Positions 27,441 to 35,864 of a DNA stretch of 64,000 bases are shown piece after piece. This DNA comes from Emticicia aquatilis (lineage in GTDB: Bacteria > Bacteroidota > Bacteroidia > Cytophagales > Spirosomataceae). The stretch covers positions 248,001 to 312,000 of the forward strand of contig NZ_BMKK01000001.1 in the NCBI RefSeq assembly GCF_014644295.1, written 5' to 3'. A program made the translations under genes and the position numbers. The notes under the pieces are model-generated. The model was not told the DNA's origin and did no database searches. It worked only from the letters and a program-made list of their open reading frames with translations. Numbering within the stretch: position 1 is the first letter of the stretch; each line of letters begins with the position of its first letter.

Positions 27441-27474
27441 AAAAAAGCTCCTAAATCAGTGATTTAAGGGCTTT
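27441..27474 (-). terminator. Terminator of the toxin-antitoxin operon
   Basis: GCTCCTAAATCA and TGATTTAAGGGC form a hairpin. On the minus strand it abuts the toxin stop codon and ends in six T (27441-27446). A near-identical hairpin is at 28090-28124. Confidence 0.75.
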
Positions 27475-27810
27475 TCATAAAATATCTTTTATTAATTTCA
27501 GGAGAACATTCTTCTGTTTGGTACTTTCTTCAGATTTATCATAAATCGTTACCAAATAAATATCAGTTCCTTCTTTGGTCTGATTTATTAAGTATGTAAT
27601 TACCCTAAAACCTCCACTTTTTCCACTTCCTTTACTCTCCACGGCCACACGAATTTTGTATAAACCTGCCCCTAAAGATTCTCCCAAAGTTGGGTTTTTG
27701 AGCAATTCATTAACTAAAGTATCTACCTCACCTCCAAGCGAGGCGAACTTCTTGGCAAATCGTTTGTAGTTTCGTTCAAAATGAGGTGTAACAATTACTT
27801 CATTTTTCAT
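27475..27810 (-). CDS. Type II toxin, RelE/ParE superfamily
   Basis: 111 residues starting MKNEVIVTPHFERNYKRFAK. The pattern of helix-rich N-terminus (FAKKFASLGGEVDTLVNELL), the LGAGLYKIRVA strand, GGFRVITYL and DIYLVTIYDKSE matches RelE/ParE/HigB-type toxins, which cleave mRNA or act on gyrase. The frame is open upstream to 27864, but the ATG at 27810 overlaps the antitoxin end by 11 bases, the normal coupling in such pairs. The antitoxin gene is immediately upstream. Which toxin subclass it is cannot be decided by eye. Confidence 0.8.
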   Translation of the reverse strand: MKNEVIVTPHFERNYKRFAKKFASLGGEVDTLVNELLKNPTLGESLGAGLYKIRVAVESKGSGKSGGFRVITYLINQTKEGTDIYLVTIYDKSEESTKQKNVLLKLIKDIL

Positions 27811-28012
27811 TAACCATTTCTTTTTTGAGTTCAGCAAATGTTTTTCGTGGTAATTTTCCATCACGAATTTGCTTCACTTCTTCCAAACCCTTTTCAATAG
27901 CTTTTAGTGAAACTTCTACGGTTTCGTCATTTTCAATGAGAAGTTTTACCTCTTTTTGCACCTTCTTTGGCAATGCCTTATAAACCTCATAGAATCCCTG
28001 TGCTGCACTCAT
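27800..28012 (-). CDS. Antitoxin of a RelE/ParE-type pair
   Basis: 70-residue charged, helical protein starting MSAAQGFYEVYKALPKKVQK. The C-terminal part (RDGKLPRKTFAELKKEMVNE) resembles the flexible toxin-wrapping tails of Bacteroidota antitoxins. Its stop overlaps the toxin start by 11 bases. It should neutralise the toxin and may repress the operon. A GTTAG-type direct repeat at 28021-28037 lies just upstream of the start codon. Confidence 0.75.
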   Translation of the reverse strand: MSAAQGFYEVYKALPKKVQKEVKLLIENDETVEVSLKAIEKGLEEVKQIRDGKLPRKTFAELKKEMVNEK

Positions 28013-28089
28013 GATATTCTGTTAGTAAATGTGTTAGTGACTCCGCTCTTATCGGTTTCAAATCTATAAAAATTTCAATTAAAACCAAA

Positions 28090-28124
28090 TAAAAAAAGCT
28101 CCTAAATCAATGATTTAAGAGCTT
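28090..28124 (-). terminator. Probable original terminator of the tRNA-Leu gene, now displaced
   Basis: AGCTCCTAAATCA and TGATTTAAGAGCT form a hairpin followed on the minus strand by seven A-complement T residues. It lies four bases outside the left attachment repeat. Before integration this position was directly downstream of the minus-strand tRNA-Leu gene, so it is read as the native tRNA terminator. Confidence 0.55.
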
Positions 28125-28127
28125 CTA

Positions 28128-28142
28128 AGTACCCGGAGCCGG
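28128..28142. repeat. Left attachment repeat (attL core)
   Basis: AGTACCCGGAGCCGG, identical to 35779-35793 at the tRNA-Leu 3' end. It is a partial copy of the tRNA acceptor/T-arm end left by integration. Confidence 0.85.
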
Positions 28143-28204
28143 CAAATAAATCAACTCCATAAATATCTGACTTTAAGCACTTTGCATAGTATTATCTGTA
28201 AATT

Positions 28205-28221
28205 GTTAGTAATGGTGTTAG
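28205..28221 (+). promoter_or_regulatory. Left subterminal integrase arm-type motif
   Basis: GTTAGTAATGGTGTTAG, 63 bases inside the left repeat. It matches the reverse complement of 35687-35703 at 15 of 17 positions, so the two ends carry it in inverted orientation. A third copy (15/17) is at 28021-28037 outside the element. Confidence 0.55.
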
Positions 28222-28326
28222 CATGGAACCAAAATTCTGCCTAAAATTAAATAGCCTCTTGAATGAACATAAATCATTTTATCCTTGTTTTGTTTATAGG
28301 AACAGATGTATTATTTCTACAATAGT

Positions 28327-29127
28327 ATGAGCAAATATTTTTTATTTATTTTCTTTTTAATTTCTCAAGCTGGGTTTTCACAAATCGACTTACCTCATCT
28401 ATCATTAGACCAAATATCAACAAGTATAGTTGTTCTATATGACAATGAATGTAGATTATCTGGCACGGGAACATTAATAAGTCATGATAACCGATATTTC
28501 ATAATTACAGCCAAACACGTTGCTTCAAATTTAAGTAATCATGCACAAGTTGTCTTTTCTTTTAGAAAAGATAGCGTTCCAATTAAGATAGATATAATTT
28601 TCATAAGCAAAAACTTGCCAACAATTTGGACACATCATCCAAAAGCAGATATCTCTTCTTTGGAAGTAGAACCAATTAATAAAGACTGGGAACAGTTTTT
28701 ATTACAAATTGCTATTAATTCCATACGTATTCCAAAATCGTTAGATGCACTAATGAGAGGTGATGAAACTTATTTTTATGGATTTCCTAATTTTGACATC
28801 AATTCACCAAAGATATCGCCTGTAAGTTTTTCTGCCGAAATATCAAGTATAATAAATTCAACTAAGATATTTGAATCAAGAGTATTTGAGTCATTACAAA
28901 CTAATGAATACGTTGAATACTTTTATTTAGACAAACCCAGTATGCAGGGAGCAAGTGGTTCAAGCGTTTTTGTTAGGGCAACGAAGTCTGGTTCGGGGAT
29001 AATGAGAAGTCATTTTAGTATGACTGCAATGATTGGAGTTATCACTCATACTCACTCAGATAATACAGGAGGAAAACTGGGAGTAGTAATGCCTTGTTAT
29101 TATATATGGGATTTAATTTCTAAATAA
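28327..29127 (+). CDS. Secreted trypsin-like serine protease, element cargo
   Basis: 266 residues from the preferred ATG at 28327, which puts a signal peptide (MSKYFLFIFFLISQAGFSQ) at the very N-terminus; an ATG at 28306 in frame adds seven residues. A chymotrypsin-like triad is visible: His in FIITAKHVASN, Asp in HPKADISSLEV, and Ser in QGASGSSVFV. GTGTLISHDNR before the His is also typical. The product should act outside the cytoplasm. It is the first gene inside the left end and has no obvious partner, so it is probably cargo. Its target is unknown. Confidence 0.7.
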   Translation: MSKYFLFIFFLISQAGFSQIDLPHLSLDQISTSIVVLYDNECRLSGTGTLISHDNRYFIITAKHVASNLSNHAQVVFSFRKDSVPIKIDIIFISKNLPTIWTHHPKADISSLEVEPINKDWEQFLLQIAINSIRIPKSLDALMRGDETYFYGFPNFDINSPKISPVSFSAEISSIINSTKIFESRVFESLQTNEYVEYFYLDKPSMQGASGSSVFVRATKSGSGIMRSHFSMTAMIGVITHTHSDNTGGKLGVVMPCYYIWDLISK

Positions 29128-29304
29128 GATGTGACTAAAATCAAATTCCAGCAAAAACAAAAGTATCGAGACTATTCTTTTAACCTTGATTAATAAATTT
29201 AAAAGAAACTTCAACTTCGGTCATTATAGCAACAAACTTTTATAATTCGTGAGTTTTAGTATTCAAAATAACAAATTTGTATTTTGAGATATTCTAAATA
29301 ATAA

Positions 29305-29799
29305 TCATTTTGCCCCAATCATATCAATAGCTTTTTCAAGAATTCCAATCATTCTATCTTTATCTTTTATAATATTCTCTTTTTCTTGAATAATGTTTTC
29401 TTTCTCTTTTATCTTATCTTGAAGTTGTTTAATCTTAGTCTTTAAGGAATCAATCTCTCTTGATTTTCTGCGATAGTCTTCAATTTCTTCTTCGTCTCTT
29501 TGGTCGTCTTCTTCTTTTAATTTTTCGACTTGTTTCGCTAATTTTTTACTTAAATTATAATAATATTCAAAATCCTCCTTAAAATCGACCGGATTCTCTT
29601 TATCATAGTTTAAAACGCTACTAACCGACATCTCAAAAATTTCTGCAATTTTTTCTAATCTTTCAACGGATATTTCCGTAAGTCCACGTTCTACACGTCC
29701 ATAATTGCTTGGGGCTAATCCAAGTTTTTCGGCTACGTCTTCTTGCTTCAACCCCTTAGCGAGACGTATAGCTTTAATATTTGCATAAATCTTATTCAT
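29305..29799 (-). CDS. XRE-family repressor-like regulator with a long coiled coil
   Basis: 164 residues. Residues 1-65 form a Cro/CI helix-turn-helix (IRLAKGLKQEDVAEKLGLAP, then SNYGRVERGLTEISVERLEK). Residues about 85-160 are a continuous, highly charged coiled coil with heptads such as KIKQLQDKIKEKENIIQEKE, which should drive dimer or oligomer formation. No protease or peptide-binding domain is present. It is divergent from the small HTH gene at 29909, with three TTTGCA motifs between them, so it probably represses the element's rightward genes like a satellite or prophage master repressor. That role is inferred from layout. Confidence 0.8.
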   Translation of the reverse strand: MNKIYANIKAIRLAKGLKQEDVAEKLGLAPSNYGRVERGLTEISVERLEKIAEIFEMSVSSVLNYDKENPVDFKEDFEYYYNLSKKLAKQVEKLKEEDDQRDEEEIEDYRRKSREIDSLKTKIKQLQDKIKEKENIIQEKENIIKDKDRMIGILEKAIDMIGAK

Positions 29800-29841
29800 A
29801 ATACAAAAATCAGAATTTATATTTTATAGATAAAATCATAT

Positions 29842-29891
29842 TTTGCACATTTAAAATTTGCATTTTTTAAATTTAAATTCAATATTTGCAC
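29842..29891 (+). promoter_or_regulatory. Divergent control region with TTTGCA repeats and a Bacteroidota promoter
   Basis: TTTGCA(C) occurs at 29842-29848, 29857-29862 and 29885-29891. TTTG at 29857-29860, a 20-base spacer and AATATTTG at 29881-29888 fit the TTTG-N20-TAnnTTTG promoter with one mismatch, placing a start near 29895 for the rightward HTH gene. TTTAAATTTAAA-like palindromic sequence lies between the boxes. The repeats overlap the promoter and are candidate operators for the XRE protein. Confidence 0.55.
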
Positions 29892-29908
29892 AAACAAAAA
29901 CTAACATT

Positions 29909-30133
29909 ATGCAAAATAAAACATTAACTCCAATTTCTCAGCTGATTAATGAATCTCTAAAATCAGTCATGCTACCTAATACTGAATTTAAACCTAATGC
30001 CATGTTTTACTCAACTATTGGCATTAATAAACACCGATTTGCAAAAATTATGCGAAATGAAGTAGAGCCAACACGGATTGAAATAAAGGCTTTATCAGAC
30101 TACTTTAAGATAAATCCAAAAGACCTTTTTTAG
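29909..30133 (+). CDS. Small Cro-like helix-turn-helix protein
   Basis: 74 residues starting MQNKTLTPISQLINESLKSV; the frame is open further upstream but would enter the operator region, and ATG 29909 sits 14 bases after the predicted transcription start. The segment INKHRFAKIMRNEVEPTRIE, then IKALSDYFKINPKDLF, is a compact HTH of the kind found in Cro-like and YdaS-like regulators. It is divergent from the XRE repressor gene, reproducing a CI/Cro or Stl/Str switch. It might also act as an excisionase. Confidence 0.65.
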   Translation: MQNKTLTPISQLINESLKSVMLPNTEFKPNAMFYSTIGINKHRFAKIMRNEVEPTRIEIKALSDYFKINPKDLF

Positions 30134-30153
30134 ACATTCACCCTTAGAAATAC

Positions 30154-30190
30154 AAAAAGCCCTTTCCTATTGCAGTAGGTCGGGGCTTGT
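30154..30190 (+). terminator. Weak hairpin between the Cro-like gene and the integrase
   Basis: AAGCCC and GGGGCTT enclose CCTATTGCAGTAGG, giving an interrupted stem. There is no clear T-tract, so it may be an attenuator or processing site. Confidence 0.35.
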
Positions 30191-30223
30191 AAACTTAAAT
30201 TTTAACTTTAAACACTCAAATAT

Positions 30224-31426
30224 ATGGATAATCCATTTATTATCAATCAAGTATCGTATCTCCAATGGATACGCCGACAGTCAGAAAGTAAAAGCGGTGA
30301 AGTTTCTGTTTATATAACTATCACCTGTAATGGTCAAAAGGCACAGTTTAATTCATTTGTAAAAGGTCAAGAAAAGCAATGGAACGCAAAGAAAAAGTGC
30401 TTTAATGGCGTTGAAAACGAGCCAATAAACGCCAAACTAAGGTTAATCACTTCGACCTTACAACAAATTGAACTCCAATTATCTGCAAGCAACCAAGAAG
30501 TAACAGCCAAAACAATCATTGAAGCCTACAAAAGTAAGTTAGAAAGCAAAATTATTAAAGCAGATAAAACACCTCCATTCTTGAAGGTTTTAGATGCGTA
30601 TTTACAACGCCAAAACGAATATGGAAATAAGCACCAAACTAAAAAGAATCATAATACTTACCGTAGGCATTTAATTACTTTTCTAAAGCAATCCAAAAAG
30701 GAAAATATTAAATGTCAAGATTTTGACTATGATTTAGCTGAAGAATTTAAGCTATTCATGTTTAGGAACAAGAGTGGCAATAATCACACAAGCCGTGTTC
30801 TTGGACTTGTGAAAAGAGTATTAGATTTTGCTATTATCAAAAAATACATTCCTAATAATCAACTCACAGCCCTACGCCTAAAGTTCGATGAAAGAATCAA
30901 TACTACATCGTTGGATATTGAGCATTTAGAACGCCTGCAAAACCACGCATTTACACCACGATTAGAAAAGATTGTCGATATGTTTCTGTTTATGTGTGGC
31001 ACAGGAATCGACCATTGTGACTATGCACGACTAACAAATGATAACTACTATTTAGAAAACGGTAGGCATTTTATTAAGCAAGAAAGGCAAAAATCGGGTT
31101 CGGAAGCCGATGCCTTAATGCTAAATTTTGCCATTAAGATTTTGGACAAATACAAAAGCATTAACGACCTCCCAAAGTGTAGTTTGACCGAACTAAACCG
31201 AGAACTTAAAGAAGCTGCAAAAATCGTTGGTATCTACATTCGTCTAACCTCCAAGATAGCCCGAAAAACATACGCTAATCACTTAGCTAATATTTCGGGT
31301 TTCTCCGATGAAAATATAGCCTATTTCATGGGTCACAAAACTACAAAGCATCTGAAACACTATCGAAAAATCAAGAAAAACAGGGTGTTCAACGAACTTT
31401 CAAAAATTGATAATAATCTATTATAA
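30224..31426 (+). CDS. Tyrosine integrase of the element (IntDOT-like)
   Basis: 400 residues with the Bacteroidota integrase layout: N-terminal arm-binding domain (about 10-100), SAM-like core-binding domain (115-220) and catalytic domain (230-390). The catalytic region shows R347 (KIARKTYANHL), H371 (FMGHKTTKHL) and nucleophile Y380 (HYRKI). The first catalytic Arg is missing: the TGxR position reads GTGIDHCDYARL with Asp at 263. Loss of this Arg is known in IntDOT-type enzymes. It should insert the element at tRNA-Leu using the 15-bp core. The gene lies between the regulatory switch and the replication genes. Confidence 0.88.
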   Translation: MDNPFIINQVSYLQWIRRQSESKSGEVSVYITITCNGQKAQFNSFVKGQEKQWNAKKKCFNGVENEPINAKLRLITSTLQQIELQLSASNQEVTAKTIIEAYKSKLESKIIKADKTPPFLKVLDAYLQRQNEYGNKHQTKKNHNTYRRHLITFLKQSKKENIKCQDFDYDLAEEFKLFMFRNKSGNNHTSRVLGLVKRVLDFAIIKKYIPNNQLTALRLKFDERINTTSLDIEHLERLQNHAFTPRLEKIVDMFLFMCGTGIDHCDYARLTNDNYYLENGRHFIKQERQKSGSEADALMLNFAIKILDKYKSINDLPKCSLTELNRELKEAAKIVGIYIRLTSKIARKTYANHLANISGFSDENIAYFMGHKTTKHLKHYRKIKKNRVFNELSKIDNNLL

Positions 31427-31447
31427 ACCACTCAAAGCACTACCACA

Positions 31448-31681
31448 ATGATAAGCAAAATAGATGCTCAAACAATAGAGCCAACACCTTCAAACATGGC
31501 AAATTTGGTTGAAAAGTATAATATTTTAGTCGAGTTATATGGAATGTCTGTCCATTGTCAGCTAAAGTACCAAGAACTATACGAATCAAATTTTGATGAA
31601 TGTAGAATATTGAAAGAGCATAATACAGCCCTTTTGATACAAGCGGATAAAATACAGGAATTTAACCAAATAAGACTTTAA
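31448..31681 (+). CDS. Small element protein of unknown function
   Basis: 77-residue acidic, helical protein starting MISKIDAQTIEPTPSNMANL. I see no known motif, signal peptide or membrane helix. It starts 21 bases after the integrase stop and is followed by a hairpin terminator, so it shares the integrase transcript. A regulatory or directionality-factor role is possible only by position. Confidence 0.55.
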   Translation: MISKIDAQTIEPTPSNMANLVEKYNILVELYGMSVHCQLKYQELYESNFDECRILKEHNTALLIQADKIQEFNQIRL

Positions 31682-31683
31682 TC

Positions 31684-31718
31684 AAAAAAGCCCTATTCGA
31701 CGGCATGAATAGGGCTTT
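31684..31718 (+). terminator. Hairpin after the integrase unit
   Basis: AAAGCCCTATTC and GAATAGGGCTTT form a 12-bp stem round eight bases, just after the stop of the 77-residue ORF. The downstream T-run is short, so read-through to the primase-helicase gene is possible. Confidence 0.6.
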
Positions 31719-31753
31719 ACACTAATCTATCAAATCTTTAGCTTTTCAAATAT

Positions 31754-33016
31754 ATGAGCAAAAATAATGATAATCAACTATTTCAAGATAAAGAAGAATT
31801 AGCAAAACGCTTTATCCGTGTAGGCGATGAATACATGAAAGAAGTATTTATACCTGATAAAGATGGGAAATTACACCGTAATTATGTAAAAAGAGACAAA
31901 GGAACTGTGCAAGACGATTTGGGCAAAAATAGTGACTTTTTTAGGTCAATTAAGAAATATGAAGGTTTTTGTCTTGTGCCTTCACACATACGCTACCAAC
32001 AAGTAGTGCAAGGATTTTTTAATGAATATTATAAGATTTCACACGAACCAAAAGAAGGCAAGTTTGATGCTATTTTAGATTATCTAAATCATGTATTTGG
32101 TAATAAAATAGACTTTATTTTAGACTATTTGCAAATACTATATATGAAACCGACACAACGACTACCAATATTATTATTGGAATCAAAAGAGCGAGGAACG
32201 GGCAAAAGTACCTTTGGGAACTTGCTTAAATTAATGTTTCAAGATAATACCGCCAAACTTGGAAACGCTGAATTAGAAAGTGATTTCAACTCTATTTGGG
32301 TCAAACGATTAGCCATTATTGTAGATGAAACCTCTTTAGAAAAGAATGGCATAATGCAAATGCTTAAACGCTTCAGTACTGAAACAGGCAAAATAACCGC
32401 CAACGAAAAAAACAAAGCCCAAAAGCAAATTGACTTTTTCGGCAAATTTATCTTTTTAAGCAATGAAGAAGGCAAAGCCCTACCAATAGAAAAAGGTGAA
32501 ACAAGATTTGCAGTTTTTAAAGTACCAACATTTGCAGAAAAAGGGATAAAAGAAAACCCAAACATTGAAGCGGATTTTATGAATGAAATGCCTGCTTTCT
32601 TATACTTTTTAACTAACCGCAAATTAGTACACGAAGAAGCTGGAAGAATGTATTTTGCACCCGAAGCATACCACACCGACCAACTCCAATACTATTTTGA
32701 TAATAGTCTAACCGCCACAGGTAAAGCGATTAGAGACCTAATGATAGAATCATTTAACTACTTCGATGAAGAAAACGAACTTAGGTATTCTGTAAGTAAC
32801 CTGTATGACGAACTTGAAGACCGATTTAGGTTTTTAGACCGTTCAAAAATCAAACGCTCACTAATCGAAGAATTTGGACTAACAGAACAAAAGAAAAACC
32901 GATATTCTTTCCATAGCCTAAAACGAGCCGAAAGAACTAAAGAAGGTAATTTCTTCCCCGAAAACGAAAATAATTGGCATTTCATTTTCAAAAGAGAATC
33001 ATTTATAAAGCCTTAA
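31754..33016 (+). CDS. Primase-helicase-like SF3 ATPase (DUF5906 type)
   Basis: 420 residues. The ATPase core has Walker A SKERGTGKSTF (about 144-154), Walker B LAIIVDET (186-193), and a sensor-like strand FGKFIFLSNEEG, the pattern of superfamily 3 D5/VirE-type helicases. RLPILLLESKERG before the P-loop is common in phage and plasmid replication proteins. The C-terminal region (SNLYDELEDRFRFLDRSK) looks like a winged-helix domain. It probably unwinds DNA at the element's own origin, a candidate for which lies 0.9 kb downstream. No conserved primase catalytic residues are evident in the N-terminal part. Confidence 0.8.
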   Translation: MSKNNDNQLFQDKEELAKRFIRVGDEYMKEVFIPDKDGKLHRNYVKRDKGTVQDDLGKNSDFFRSIKKYEGFCLVPSHIRYQQVVQGFFNEYYKISHEPKEGKFDAILDYLNHVFGNKIDFILDYLQILYMKPTQRLPILLLESKERGTGKSTFGNLLKLMFQDNTAKLGNAELESDFNSIWVKRLAIIVDETSLEKNGIMQMLKRFSTETGKITANEKNKAQKQIDFFGKFIFLSNEEGKALPIEKGETRFAVFKVPTFAEKGIKENPNIEADFMNEMPAFLYFLTNRKLVHEEAGRMYFAPEAYHTDQLQYYFDNSLTATGKAIRDLMIESFNYFDEENELRYSVSNLYDELEDRFRFLDRSKIKRSLIEEFGLTEQKKNRYSFHSLKRAERTKEGNFFPENENNWHFIFKRESFIKP

Positions 33017-33103
33017 AATCCTACTTTTTCATTTCTAAATGTGATTCTCCTGGCGGTAAAGTAGTAAAGCTGAATCACAGATTTTCAAATAAAATAACTG
33101 ACT

Positions 33104-33910
33104 ATGAAATTAATACTTTCACTTTTTCAAGGAATAGGAATGTTGGATAATGGATTTACTGAAAACGGTTTTTGTGTTGTTGCTGCACCCGAAAAACTAC
33201 TTAGTGGGGACATTAGAAACTTTAAAGGAATGATAGGCAAATTCGATGGTATAATTGGCGGTAGTCCATGCCAAGATTTTAGCTTATTGAATCGAACACC
33301 TAAAGGCAATTCTATTGAAATGCTATGGCATTTTTGCCGTATTGTTAATGAGTGCAAGCCTAATTGGTTTCTCTTAGAAAATGTTCTACAAGTGCCAACG
33401 GTAGCAATCGACGGCTATCATGTTCAACGGTTTAATTTATCACCTAACGATTTAGGATTTGAACAAAGTAGAAATAGAACTTTCCAATTTGGTAGTCTTG
33501 ACGGTATGATTTTAAATGTTTTCGACTTCAAAAAGTCAGATACAAAACAAAGAATTGTGCTTGCATCTGAAGGCAAAAAACAAGACCGTAGAAAGTTTGA
33601 TGATTTTTGCAAATTACAGGGGTTCAATACTACACCCGAATTAGATTCATTTACACGTTCTGCTAAATATCAAGCCGTAGGTAATGGCGTACATTTAGGC
33701 GTATCCTATGTGATTGCTAAAGCTATTTGGGACGTGGCGACTTCTACGAATCCTAAAACAATTCACAATACGAAAGTTTGTGTTTGCGGTTGTGGAAGGA
33801 TAACCACCAACAAAAAGAAAAGTGCAACCGATGCGTGTAGAAAAAGACTACAAAAGAACCGTGAAAGAGCTTTATTTCAATATAACTCGATTAGGGACGG
33901 TAAAGCGTGA
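33104..33910 (+). CDS. Compact C5 cytosine DNA methyltransferase
   Basis: 268 residues. Motif I (LSLFQGIGMLDNGF), motif IV with catalytic C56 (GGSPCQDFS), motif VI (FLLENV, 92-94), motif VIII (QSRNRTFQFG, 121-130) and the closing motif (YQAVGNGVHLGVSYVIAKAI-like, 189-208) are present in order. The target-recognition region between VIII and the end is only about 55 residues, much shorter than in typical Dcm enzymes. The last 45 residues carry a Cys cluster (CVCGCG, then DAC) and a basic tail, possibly a zinc-binding DNA-contact module. No restriction partner is adjacent, so it is likely a solitary enzyme that protects or marks the element. Confidence 0.85.
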   Translation: MKLILSLFQGIGMLDNGFTENGFCVVAAPEKLLSGDIRNFKGMIGKFDGIIGGSPCQDFSLLNRTPKGNSIEMLWHFCRIVNECKPNWFLLENVLQVPTVAIDGYHVQRFNLSPNDLGFEQSRNRTFQFGSLDGMILNVFDFKKSDTKQRIVLASEGKKQDRRKFDDFCKLQGFNTTPELDSFTRSAKYQAVGNGVHLGVSYVIAKAIWDVATSTNPKTIHNTKVCVCGCGRITTNKKKSATDACRKRLQKNRERALFQYNSIRDGKA

Positions 33911-33983
33911 AAGTACCTGGTATATGTACGCTCAGGAGATTCACAAAACCACATTTTCTTAAATATTGGAAAAGTACAATTAA

Positions 33984-34213
33984 TTTCCAAAAAAGCCGAT
34001 TTTGTTCCAAAATAAAAAGTGCTTGGAACACATTTGGAACAACAAAAAGACAAGAAAATGATTGGTTTATATTTTTCTTAAAATCTTGGAACATTGGAAC
34101 AAATGACAATAAGTATTTAATAATCAATTAATTATACTGTTCCAAATATGTTCCAAAAGTGTTCCAAAGTTCCAAAAAAAATACCAAAAATGTCTTTGTT
34201 CCAAATGTTCCAA
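33984..34213. other. Iteron-like array, candidate replication origin
   Basis: The 363-bp gap 33911-34273 holds 11 exact GTTCCAA/TTGGAAC heptamers. Forward copies start at 34004, 34139, 34150, 34161, 34169, 34198 and 34207; reverse copies at 34023, 34034, 34086 and 34094. Spacings of 11, 11, 11, 8, 8 and 9 bases put many on one helix face. Four reverse and six forward copies flank a 38-base AT-rich core (34101-34138). Position between replication genes suggests an origin. Confidence 0.65.
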
Positions 34214-34273
34214 AAAAACAGCTATATCACGCCAAAACGCATTAAATTCTATTACCGCTAAAAGAAAAGTACA

Positions 34274-35203
34274 ATGTTTATAAATAAATCAGACATCGAA
34301 GAAGTAAAGCAATATTCTATTATTGACTATCTAAACAGTAATGGAATACATCCATTTAAAGAAGTTGGCAGGCAAATGGTGTATTATTCACCATTAACCA
34401 ACGAGAAAACAGCATCGTTTTTGGTCGAACCAAACAAGAACGTATTCAATGATTATTCAAGCGGTCAAAAAGGCGATATAATTCGATTAGTTGAACTAAT
34501 TGAACAAATACCTTTCATTGAAGCAGTCAAGCGAATACAGAGCCTAAAAAGCACCTGTTTTGCACCTAATAGCAACGTTACAGAGAAGTATCCGAGACGT
34601 GAAAACAACGTTTCTGATTTATCTTTTTCTTTTAGCGGTAATAACACTATCAAGGAATCAAAGATTGAAATAAAGAGCGTTCAATCAATTACAAACCCTT
34701 CATTGATTCAATATATAGAACAACGAGGAATCAATATAGATTTAGGCAAAATCTATTTAAAAGAAATACACTTCAGCAATAACGGCAAAAGGTATTTTGC
34801 AGTAGGCTTTCAGAATAATAGTGGTGGTTATGAATTGAGAAATGCCTTAAAGTTTAAAGCCAAGACCGCTAACGGAATAACCGTATTTGATAAAGGCACA
34901 AAAACTGTTAATTTATTTGAAGGATTCTTCGATTTTCTTTCAGCACTTCAGTACTATAATACCAAAGCATTTAATAATACTACTATTGTACTTAATACTA
35001 ATAACAATCTACAATTATTCTTAAAGACCCTAACCGATAATCAAATTATCAATTCTTTTCTTGATAACGACAAAAGTGGTCAATCTACTGTAAATCAATT
35101 GATTAACAAAGGTTATAGCGTAGTAAATCAGTCTCAAAAACTATACCCTAATAGTAAGGACTTTAACGATTATCTGTTAGGAAAACCCATAGAAACCGTT
35201 TAA
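34274..35203 (+). CDS. TOPRIM primase-like protein
   Basis: 309 residues. The N-terminal part (IIDYLNSNGIHPFKEVGRQM, then YYSPLTNEKTASFLVEPNKN and FNDYSSGQKGDIIRLVELIE) follows the fold of the CHC2 zinc-finger domain of DnaG but lacks the zinc Cys/His set. The C-terminal half has a TOPRIM-like pattern: VNLFEGFFDFLSAL with a conserved Glu, then SFLDNDKSGQSTVNQLI with the DxD-like acidic motif. Such proteins prime replication in phages, satellites and plasmids. It follows the iteron array by 61 bases and with the SF3 helicase forms the replication module. Confidence 0.78.
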   Translation: MFINKSDIEEVKQYSIIDYLNSNGIHPFKEVGRQMVYYSPLTNEKTASFLVEPNKNVFNDYSSGQKGDIIRLVELIEQIPFIEAVKRIQSLKSTCFAPNSNVTEKYPRRENNVSDLSFSFSGNNTIKESKIEIKSVQSITNPSLIQYIEQRGINIDLGKIYLKEIHFSNNGKRYFAVGFQNNSGGYELRNALKFKAKTANGITVFDKGTKTVNLFEGFFDFLSALQYYNTKAFNNTTIVLNTNNNLQLFLKTLTDNQIINSFLDNDKSGQSTVNQLINKGYSVVNQSQKLYPNSKDFNDYLLGKPIETV

Positions 35204-35261
35204 CGGATTTCATACCAATATCAAACGTATTTTATAACTATTAACAAACCAATATATTCCA

Positions 35262-35675
35262 ATGGAAAAGAAAAAATGTAAACAATGTGGCAAAAGTTTT
35301 GAAGCTAAAAGAAGTGATTCTCTTTATTGCTCAAACACCTGTAAACAACAGGCACACCACAAAAGAGCGACTGAAAAAAGCCCTTCACCTAATAAAGACC
35401 AAGAAATGACTGTGTTTTATTTAGATGAATACCAAAATTTAAACTGGGAAAACTTCGATATAATCACTTTTTGTTTTTTAAGGAGGAATTTAAAAGGCAA
35501 TGTTTCTCAAGATGAAATTAATCATTACATCAATGCTGTTGTGTGGGACGATACCGATTGGAGAGTAAAGTATGATACCATCAGACGAACTAAAGCATTT
35601 GCCGATTTTCAAGAAAGATTTTTAAGTGGTGAGATTCAAGTTTTATCCAAAAAAGAAATTGAATCAGAGGCTTAA
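35262..35675 (+). CDS. Small zinc-finger protein of mobile-element type
   Basis: 137 residues starting MEKKKCKQCGKSFEAKRSD. The CxxC and YCSNTCKQQAHH elements make a treble-clef-like zinc ribbon in residues 5-35, followed by a charged linker and an acidic helical domain. Proteins of this kind are common in Bacteroidota integrative elements, with unknown function. It is the last gene before the right end and starts 58 bases after the TOPRIM gene on the same strand. Confidence 0.65.
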   Translation: MEKKKCKQCGKSFEAKRSDSLYCSNTCKQQAHHKRATEKSPSPNKDQEMTVFYLDEYQNLNWENFDIITFCFLRRNLKGNVSQDEINHYINAVVWDDTDWRVKYDTIRRTKAFADFQERFLSGEIQVLSKKEIESEA

Positions 35676-35686
35676 AATCTGTGTTA

Positions 35687-35703
35687 CTAACGCTATTACT
35701 AAC
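35687..35703 (-). promoter_or_regulatory. Right subterminal integrase arm-type motif
   Basis: CTAACGCTATTACTAAC on the plus strand, the inverted counterpart of 28205-28221 (15/17 matches). It lies about 76 bases inside the right attachment repeat. Confidence 0.55.
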
Positions 35704-35723
35704 AATTCTGATTTTTGAGAAAT

Positions 35724-35769
35724 AAAAAAACCGTAATTGCTTAATTATCAGCATATTACGGTTTTTTTT
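35724..35769. terminator. Element-borne terminator now serving tRNA-Leu
   Basis: AAAAACCGTAAT and ATTACGGTTTTT pair round an AT-rich loop, with long A and T runs on both sides, so it works in both directions. On the minus strand it comes 12 bases after the tRNA-Leu 3' end and on the plus strand it ends the zinc-finger gene transcript. Confidence 0.8.
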
Positions 35770-35778
35770 GATACTTAG

Positions 35779-35793
35779 AGTACCCGGAGCCGG
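35779..35793. repeat. Right attachment repeat (attR core, inside tRNA-Leu)
   Basis: AGTACCCGGAGCCGG, identical to 28128-28142. It covers the tRNA 3' end, so integration leaves the tRNA gene intact. Confidence 0.85.
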
Positions 35794-35864
35794 AGTCGAA
35801 CCGGCACGAGTGTAACCTCATTGGTGTTTGAGACCAACGCGTCTACCAATTCCGCCATCCGGGC
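35781..35864 (-). tRNA. tRNA-Leu (CAA anticodon)
   Basis: 84 bases on the minus strand, GCCCGGATGGCGGAATTGGT at the 5' end. The acceptor stem GCCCGGA pairs with TCCGGGT. The anticodon loop CTCAAAC is closed by a TTGGT/ACCAA stem and gives anticodon CAA (codon UUG). A long variable arm and the T-arm GGTTCGACTCC fit a class II leucine tRNA. CCA is not encoded. Its 3' end is the integration target of the adjacent element. Confidence 0.95.

Follow-up and report, generated by a model that had tools for sequence, protein, structure and literature searches.

A candidate iteron origin in an integrative element of Emticicia aquatilis, and co-variation of its repeats with the neighbouring helicase

Short repeats packed between the helicase and primase genes of a small integrated element raise the question of what function they serve. 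In the window analysed here, a 64,000-nucleotide stretch of the Emticicia aquatilis genome, eleven exact copies of GTTCCAA or its complement TTGGAAC occupy the space in front of a TOPRIM gene (Table 1), and a first-pass annotation had read them as a candidate iteron origin with an AT-rich opening zone. All eleven copies were confirmed by position, and the placement given for them, between the helicase/methyltransferase genes and the TOPRIM gene, matches the gene coordinates; the annotated right end of the array, 34213, is right, but the left end, 33984, is 20 bp early, the true start being 34004. The genome-wide count that had been proposed as a check returned 680 copies of GTTCCAA (335 + 345; 6,747,492 bases, 36 contigs), from which 0.0206 are expected in the array stretch against eleven seen (Poisson P(≥11) ~7e-27), and the top 7-mer never exceeded six copies when the intergenic region was shuffled 200 times. 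Four further heptamers, one of them (28576) within the element, lie in the rest of the window, and the total of 15 against 11.8 expected is no enrichment by count; the exceptional feature is therefore clustering. Similar density elsewhere in the genome had been named as the observation that would speak against an origin, and what was found is that all six of the genome's same-orientation heptamer pairs with a gap of 1-6 nt lie in this array.

The copies form two opposed arms around a core, in the order that had been described: a lone forward copy outside the left arm, four reverse copies, a 38-base AT-rich stretch and six forward copies. The AT-rich stretch also held up on inspection, having 87% A+T compared with 68% for the element, being the least stable 38-mer in the intergenic region and ranking 23rd of 7,628 across the element; the inner GGAACA and TGTTCC boxes on its two sides have 36 bp between them. 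Start-to-start spacings are 19, 11, 52, 8, 45, 11, 11, 8, 29 and 9, so phasing is only partial: the steps of 11 or 8-9 bases reported earlier are present (11, 11, 11, 8, 8, 9), but so are 19, 52, 45 and 29.

Table 1 Features of the element and of its candidate origin, in window coordinates.
Feature	Position	Strand	Basis
Left attachment core, AGTACCCGGAGCCGG	28128..28142	+	Repeat search and empty-site alignment
Trypsin-like protein, cargo	28306..29127	+	Pfam, PADLOC
XRE-type regulator, divergent from next gene	29305..29799	-	Pfam
Small HTH (Cro/C1-like) protein	29906..30133	+	Weak Pfam match below cut-off
Tyrosine integrase	30224..31426	+	Pfam
DUF5906 SF3-type helicase, proposed initiator	31754..33016	+	Pfam, PDB profile, predicted structure
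C5-cytosine methyltransferase, cargo	33104..33910	+	Pfam; missing here in L057
Candidate iteron array, 11 exact GTTCCAA/TTGGAAC	34004..34213	.	Genome-wide copy count and density statistics
Heptamer starts and strands	34004+, 34023-, 34034-, 34086-, 34094-, 34139+, 34150+, 34161+, 34169+, 34198+, 34207+		
Left arm, 4 reverse heptamers, inner two 8 bp apart	34023..34100	-	Heptamer positions
AT-rich core, candidate unwinding zone, 87% A+T	34101..34138	.	Composition and stability
Right arm, 6 forward heptamers, first spacings 11, 11, 8	34139..34213	+	Heptamer positions
CCGCTAAAAGAAAA copy 1, just upstream of primase gene	34255..34268	+	
CHC2-like/TOPRIM primase-family protein	34274..35203	+	Pfam, PHROGs, alignment
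CCGCTAAAAGAAAA copy 2, inverted, within primase coding sequence	34625..34638	-	
Small zinc-finger-like protein after primase	35262..35675	+	Weak matches only
Right attachment core, overlaps tRNA-Leu 3' end	35779..35793	+	Repeat search and empty-site alignment
tRNA-Leu(CAA), integration target	35780..35864	-	

The array lies in an element of 7,651 bp plus repeat (7.65 kb, 28128-35793) that is integrated at a tRNA-Leu gene and has the same 15-bp repeat at both ends. Two genomes of the same genus, L169 (G009) and L170 (G004), align across the element without it: the 55 or 51 bp of the window that end at 28142 join the right flank from 35779 with 15 bp in common, and this direct flank-to-flank alignment marks an empty attachment site. 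Leftward, alignment to these genomes resumes only at 27475 or 27473; the toxin-antitoxin segment at 27474-28091 is thus also extra in the window, and this element does not account for it. A RelE/ParE-like toxin is encoded there, by a weak Pfam match, and the segment is flanked by a 33-bp terminator-like repeat (27441-27473 and 28092-28124). Six of eight related loci scanned each contain one tRNA gene, at varying distance (Leu in L057, Arg in L073, Ser in L084, Asn in L074, L071 and L063). GTTAGTRA repeats near the element ends (28205, 35684, 35696) are possible integrase arm sites; the motif also occurs outside the left end (28021, 28033), and its seven copies in the window, against 4.75 expected, are no enrichment.

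Gene order in the element is trypsin-like protein, divergent XRE regulator, HTH protein, integrase, a small protein without matches, helicase, C5 methyltransferase, array, primase and zinc-finger-like protein, and by annotation alone the genes share one direction except that for XRE. The methyltransferase is cargo: L057, the sister element in Emticicia aquatica, carries the same array but lacks a methyltransferase gene at that place. PADLOC matches the trypsin-like cargo in part to LmuA (E 1.4e-11). No cysteine occurs within the first 90 residues of the primase's CHC2-like domain, and the full zinc-ligand set is absent in the other 14 aligned primases, as judged by inspection. Ten proteins scanned with Pfam and PHROGs included no phage structural or lytic gene product, and Rfam gave no match at gathering scores in 33600-34700.

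We consider it very likely, from comparison of related sequences, that the array serves this element as its replication origin. A repeat cluster beside an initiator gene and an AT-rich zone, by which iteron origins are recognized, are both present, and the matching of repeat identity to initiator is present as statistical co-variation, not as binding. The iteron-origin interpretation of the first-pass annotation is accordingly the best-supported one, on four grounds: the array's place, an arm-core-arm geometry in six arrays, unit letters that follow helicase type and plasmid initiators in two relatives.

The geometry is best seen among close relatives. All eleven heptamers occur at window spacing in L057 (primase 96% identical) and in an Emticicia metagenome-assembled genome, L058 (64%), and over a 220-bp block the heptamer positions are fully identical (77/77 in both), compared with 125/143 of the other positions for L057 and 123/143 for L058 (Fisher p 3e-4 and 1e-4). 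The helicases of L060, L073 and L084 are 48-53% identical to that of the window, and the arrays of these loci repeat the opposed layout with TGTTCC(A) units and right-arm spacings of 11-11-8, 11-11-8 and 12-11-9, respectively. The inner-box core measures 36 bp in five of the six window-type arrays (window, L057, L058, L060 and L084) and 46 bp in L073; by eye the cores of L060, L073 and L084 appear unrelated in sequence. The A+T maximum of the gap, taken over 40 bp, falls to the left of the core in both L058 and L060.

Further loci with window-type helicases (21 loci, 29-41% identity, drawn from 395 genomes of the class) contained no GGAACA repeats, nor has L024 (helicase 32-33% identical) a GGAACA array, which together rule out the same letters accompanying every DUF5906 helicase. 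Six of these 21 (L145, L147, L148, L150, L157, L158) carry a different array directly 3' of the helicase gene; the other fifteen have none directly after it in a test returning only each locus's best window, and L165 only equalled its shuffle maximum. A left pair 8 bp apart, 46 bp across the core (start to start) and a right pair 11 bp apart are common to L147, L148 and the Phocaeicola record L183, which perhaps form one clade; L158 has 8, 46 and 12, and the window by the same 6-mer measure 8, 42 and 11. The opposed layout is not kept in L145, L150 and L184. As far as these sequences indicate, the array's place often holds while its letters drift, and the geometry is common, not universal.

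Repeat letters were then compared across primase relatives (the best 80 of 404 from genome contigs, 7 from viral contigs, and others from whole genomes), and repeats were found in the same place with other letters. Of 76 primase-upstream regions 150 bp or longer, 37 had a significant array at p ≤ 0.01, with 200 shuffles each, and 39 had none, which counts against the reading as an origin. The genes in front of the arrays form several BLAST clusters, and Pfam, run on ten such genes, recognized VapE-like proteins (also weak DUF5906), DUF5906 proteins of the window type and D5_N with DUF5906; L063 matched AAA_22/AAA_25 below cut-off, L082 of the same cluster had no match, and neither had L109. 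Units found with VapE are TACTCGA, TACTACA, TACAACA, TACCACA and GGTAGCA, those with the AAA cluster AACGAAC, ACGGACA and AGGGACA, those with the window type GTTCCAA/TGGAACA, and that with the cluster of L109 AGTGCAT. Orientations are mixed in the VapE-type arrays (for example >><>>><<<), which lack the simple arrangement of two opposed arms. For the 34 arrays whose helicase was assigned, 69/203 pairs of the same helicase type had a unit in common, as against 0/358 pairs of different type (permutation p 2e-4, with relatedness left in by the permutation). Pairs matched at 40-50% primase identity gave 25/76 versus 0/113, and on a primase tree of 90 rows, whose bootstrap had not settled, the three commonest helicase types change at least 12 times, the sister rows L071 and L082 (100/99) having different helicases and different repeats. 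The co-variation counts, with which the primase-matched counts and the tree agree, argue that the array's partner is the helicase rather than the primase.

Plasmid initiators take the helicase's place in two relatives. L078 has a Rep_3 initiator there, with repeats below the array cut (the 6-mer count only equals the shuffle maximum, the 7-mer count exceeds it). The Runella plasmid pSP2_3 (11.3 kb, 'complete sequence') carries RepA_C, a repeat gap, a primase of the same family (28.8% identical), a SEFIR protein and SSB; its gap contains eight copies of GCGAGTAA in a single orientation, against a shuffle maximum of five. The order initiator, repeats, primase therefore occurs on a plasmid, which we take as a hint of replication. 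The module also occurs in Phocaeicola and Bacteroides 'plasmid' records, which were not taken to prove autonomous replication because one of them carries a chromosomal-looking gene.

An AlphaFold2 model of the helicase built on 21 aligned sequences reached a pLDDT of 87.5 (55 in a first run on eight). Its C-terminal part, about residues 321-413, has the order helix, strand, helix, helix, strand, short helix, strand, which we read as winged-helix-like. Foldseek placed the C-terminal region of the NrS-1 primase first (6k9c, E 4.7e-18), followed by poxvirus E5/D5 helicases and the SaPI5 primase-helicase (7ola, E 2.3e-9), the SaPI5 match being one of fold level (14-16% identity, TM-score at most ~0.5). 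A profile search of PDB sequences returned the NrS-1 primase only, and Pfam gave no Rep_3 or RepA_C match for the window helicase. Among the proteins named as candidates (the helicase, the XRE protein and the Cro-like protein), the helicase is the likely binder of the heptamers. In the mechanism that we propose, the integrase would excise the element, the helicase would bind the heptamers via its C-terminal part, the opposed arms would load two hexamers, the AT core would open and the hexamers unwind outward, the TOPRIM protein would lay primers, and a host or helper polymerase would copy the circle.

The array could instead be an operator that controls the primase gene and is bound by an element regulator or by a repressing helicase or primase, as its end 60 bp before the primase start codon and the frequent autoregulation of initiators might suggest. 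We consider this improbable because the heptamer is absent from the XRE/Cro-like intergenic region, no TAnnTTTG box (the Bacteroidota -7 consensus) lies on either strand of 33700-34700, eleven sites in opposed arms round a core of fixed length would seem to exceed the needs of an operator, and the letters follow helicase type. Centromeres can also contain repeat arrays and many Bacteroidota elements are mobilised, but a partition centromere or transfer origin is more improbable still, given that no ParA/ParB or relaxase family was found among the ten Pfam-scanned proteins and that the genes co-varying with the repeats are helicases or initiators. Least credible are accessory sites for the integrase or an excisionase: the element does encode a tyrosine integrase, and such enzymes use arm sites, but the array is 1.6 kb from the right end, GTTAGTRA is another repeat near both ends (though unenriched in the window), and the integrases detected with a single profile occur beside different arrays.

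Besides the heptamers, a second motif, CCGCTAAAAGAAAA, occurs as an inverted pair at the primase gene; both strands carry a copy close to the start of the primase in 24 of 87 related loci and in the window (at most two mismatches). Single copies are in-gene in L085 and L137 and upstream in L078 and L107. All 25 loci with the pair fall in a single part of the primase tree, 38 rows in size, whose support of 92/92 is below the tool's mark and which includes VapE, AAA and window-type helicases; none falls among the other 52 rows; the pair state changes at least nine times on the tree, and its distribution is thus patchy. The listed in-gene copies are in one frame in 23 of 25 cases (FSFSG in 19) and in another frame in L073 and L084, which argues that the motif is conserved as DNA and not as protein; protein conservation is ruled out by these two loci and by the non-coding partner copy. 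Both copies are upstream in L070, where the gene encodes PFSLSG with other codons. The two copies of an element agree beyond shuffled pairings in the core (p 3e-4) and the four 5' bases (p 1e-4), with p 0.06 for the four 3' bases (21 pairs, relatedness left in). A translation-start signal was rejected, as the motif lies 58, 111 and 181 bp before the start in L060, L059 and L063. By our own count over 98 genomes, exact CCGCTAAAAGAAAA is not in excess (37 copies, versus 41 for a reversed control); 18 of the 37 copies make up nine inverted pairs, each at a primase locus.

The inverted pair is therefore a concrete, unexplained cis element in one part of the primase family. Our preferred reading is that its copies may be start sites for the primase; alternatives are fork arrest, binding of another shared protein, or exchange between the two copies. 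The oriV of the IncQ plasmid RSF1010 combines iterons for one protein with an inverted pair of plasmid-primase sites, and these sites are hairpins. Like them, the CCGCTAAAAGAAAA copies are inverted and on opposite strands, but in six folded sites of three elements no single-strand hairpin beyond z -2 was found (best -1.79). A bolder and rather doubtful idea is that such origins carry two independently exchanged codes, in which the helicase or initiator would read the iterons and the TOPRIM primase would read the CCGCTAAAAGAAAA pair to start each strand, one site being hidden in the primase's own gene and kept as DNA whatever the frame.

The array, very probably an iteron origin, is of a known general kind, showing clear co-variation of helicase and repeat together with a second cis element still unexplained. 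PICI origins, according to PMC6092414, lie directly 3' of rep and have an AT-rich region with an iteron set on each side, and the window likewise has two sets round an AT-rich region 3' of its helicase gene, except that a methyltransferase gene, absent there in L057, lies between. Shared with PICIs and SaPIs are also a helicase fold similar to the SaPI5 primase-helicase, an integrase and divergent regulators, and a lack of phage structural or lytic genes among the ten proteins scanned. Unlike them, the element is in a Bacteroidota host, measures 7.65 kb compared with ~15 kb typical of Gram-positive PICIs, and has its integrase on the rep strand and its primase gene after the origin. Gram-positive PICIs place int to the left of and with the repressor, and xis, pri, rep and ori on the other side; the window's order of XRE (-), HTH, int, helicase, ori and primase differs from this, as does the element's size. 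For Gram-negative PICIs the trait is transcription in one direction, and what is seen here is gene orientation: the annotated element genes point one way except XRE. We suggest by analogy that the window origin may work like a PICI origin, a likeness of layout from which PICI membership is not claimed. Such a layout in Bacteroidota would mean either that these satellites reach further than thought or that the layout goes with the SF3 helicase and not with PICIs.

Other systems share less. The SCCmec helicase Cch2 binds short direct repeats downstream of its own gene via its C-terminal domain (PMC7581432), but has three iterons rather than eleven, and priming there is by a CCPol-MP pair, not a TOPRIM protein. 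Rep_3 and RepA_C iteron plasmids likewise have repeats beside the initiator gene, and two relatives of the module have such initiators, but the window has a DUF5906 helicase and opposed arms. PLE satellites of Vibrio cholerae encode their own initiator, which binds iterons in non-coding DNA of a mobile element (PMC7145576); that initiator is RepA_N, and the PLE iteron holds inverted sub-repeats. Titles and abstract openings in the open-licence literature yielded no description of Bacteroidota elements of this family. Because the family forms a natural series of matched helicase-repeat pairs, origin recognition is directly testable by swaps.

Two minor observations concern other loci. The genome's other TOPRIM gene (C6) has no obvious array (top 6-mer five times in 868 bp, raw count) and is, by eye, preceded by an integrase-like ORF. 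At G000:C1:157232-158144, five GTTCCAA copies recur at exact 228-bp steps, probably in a tandem-repeat gene.
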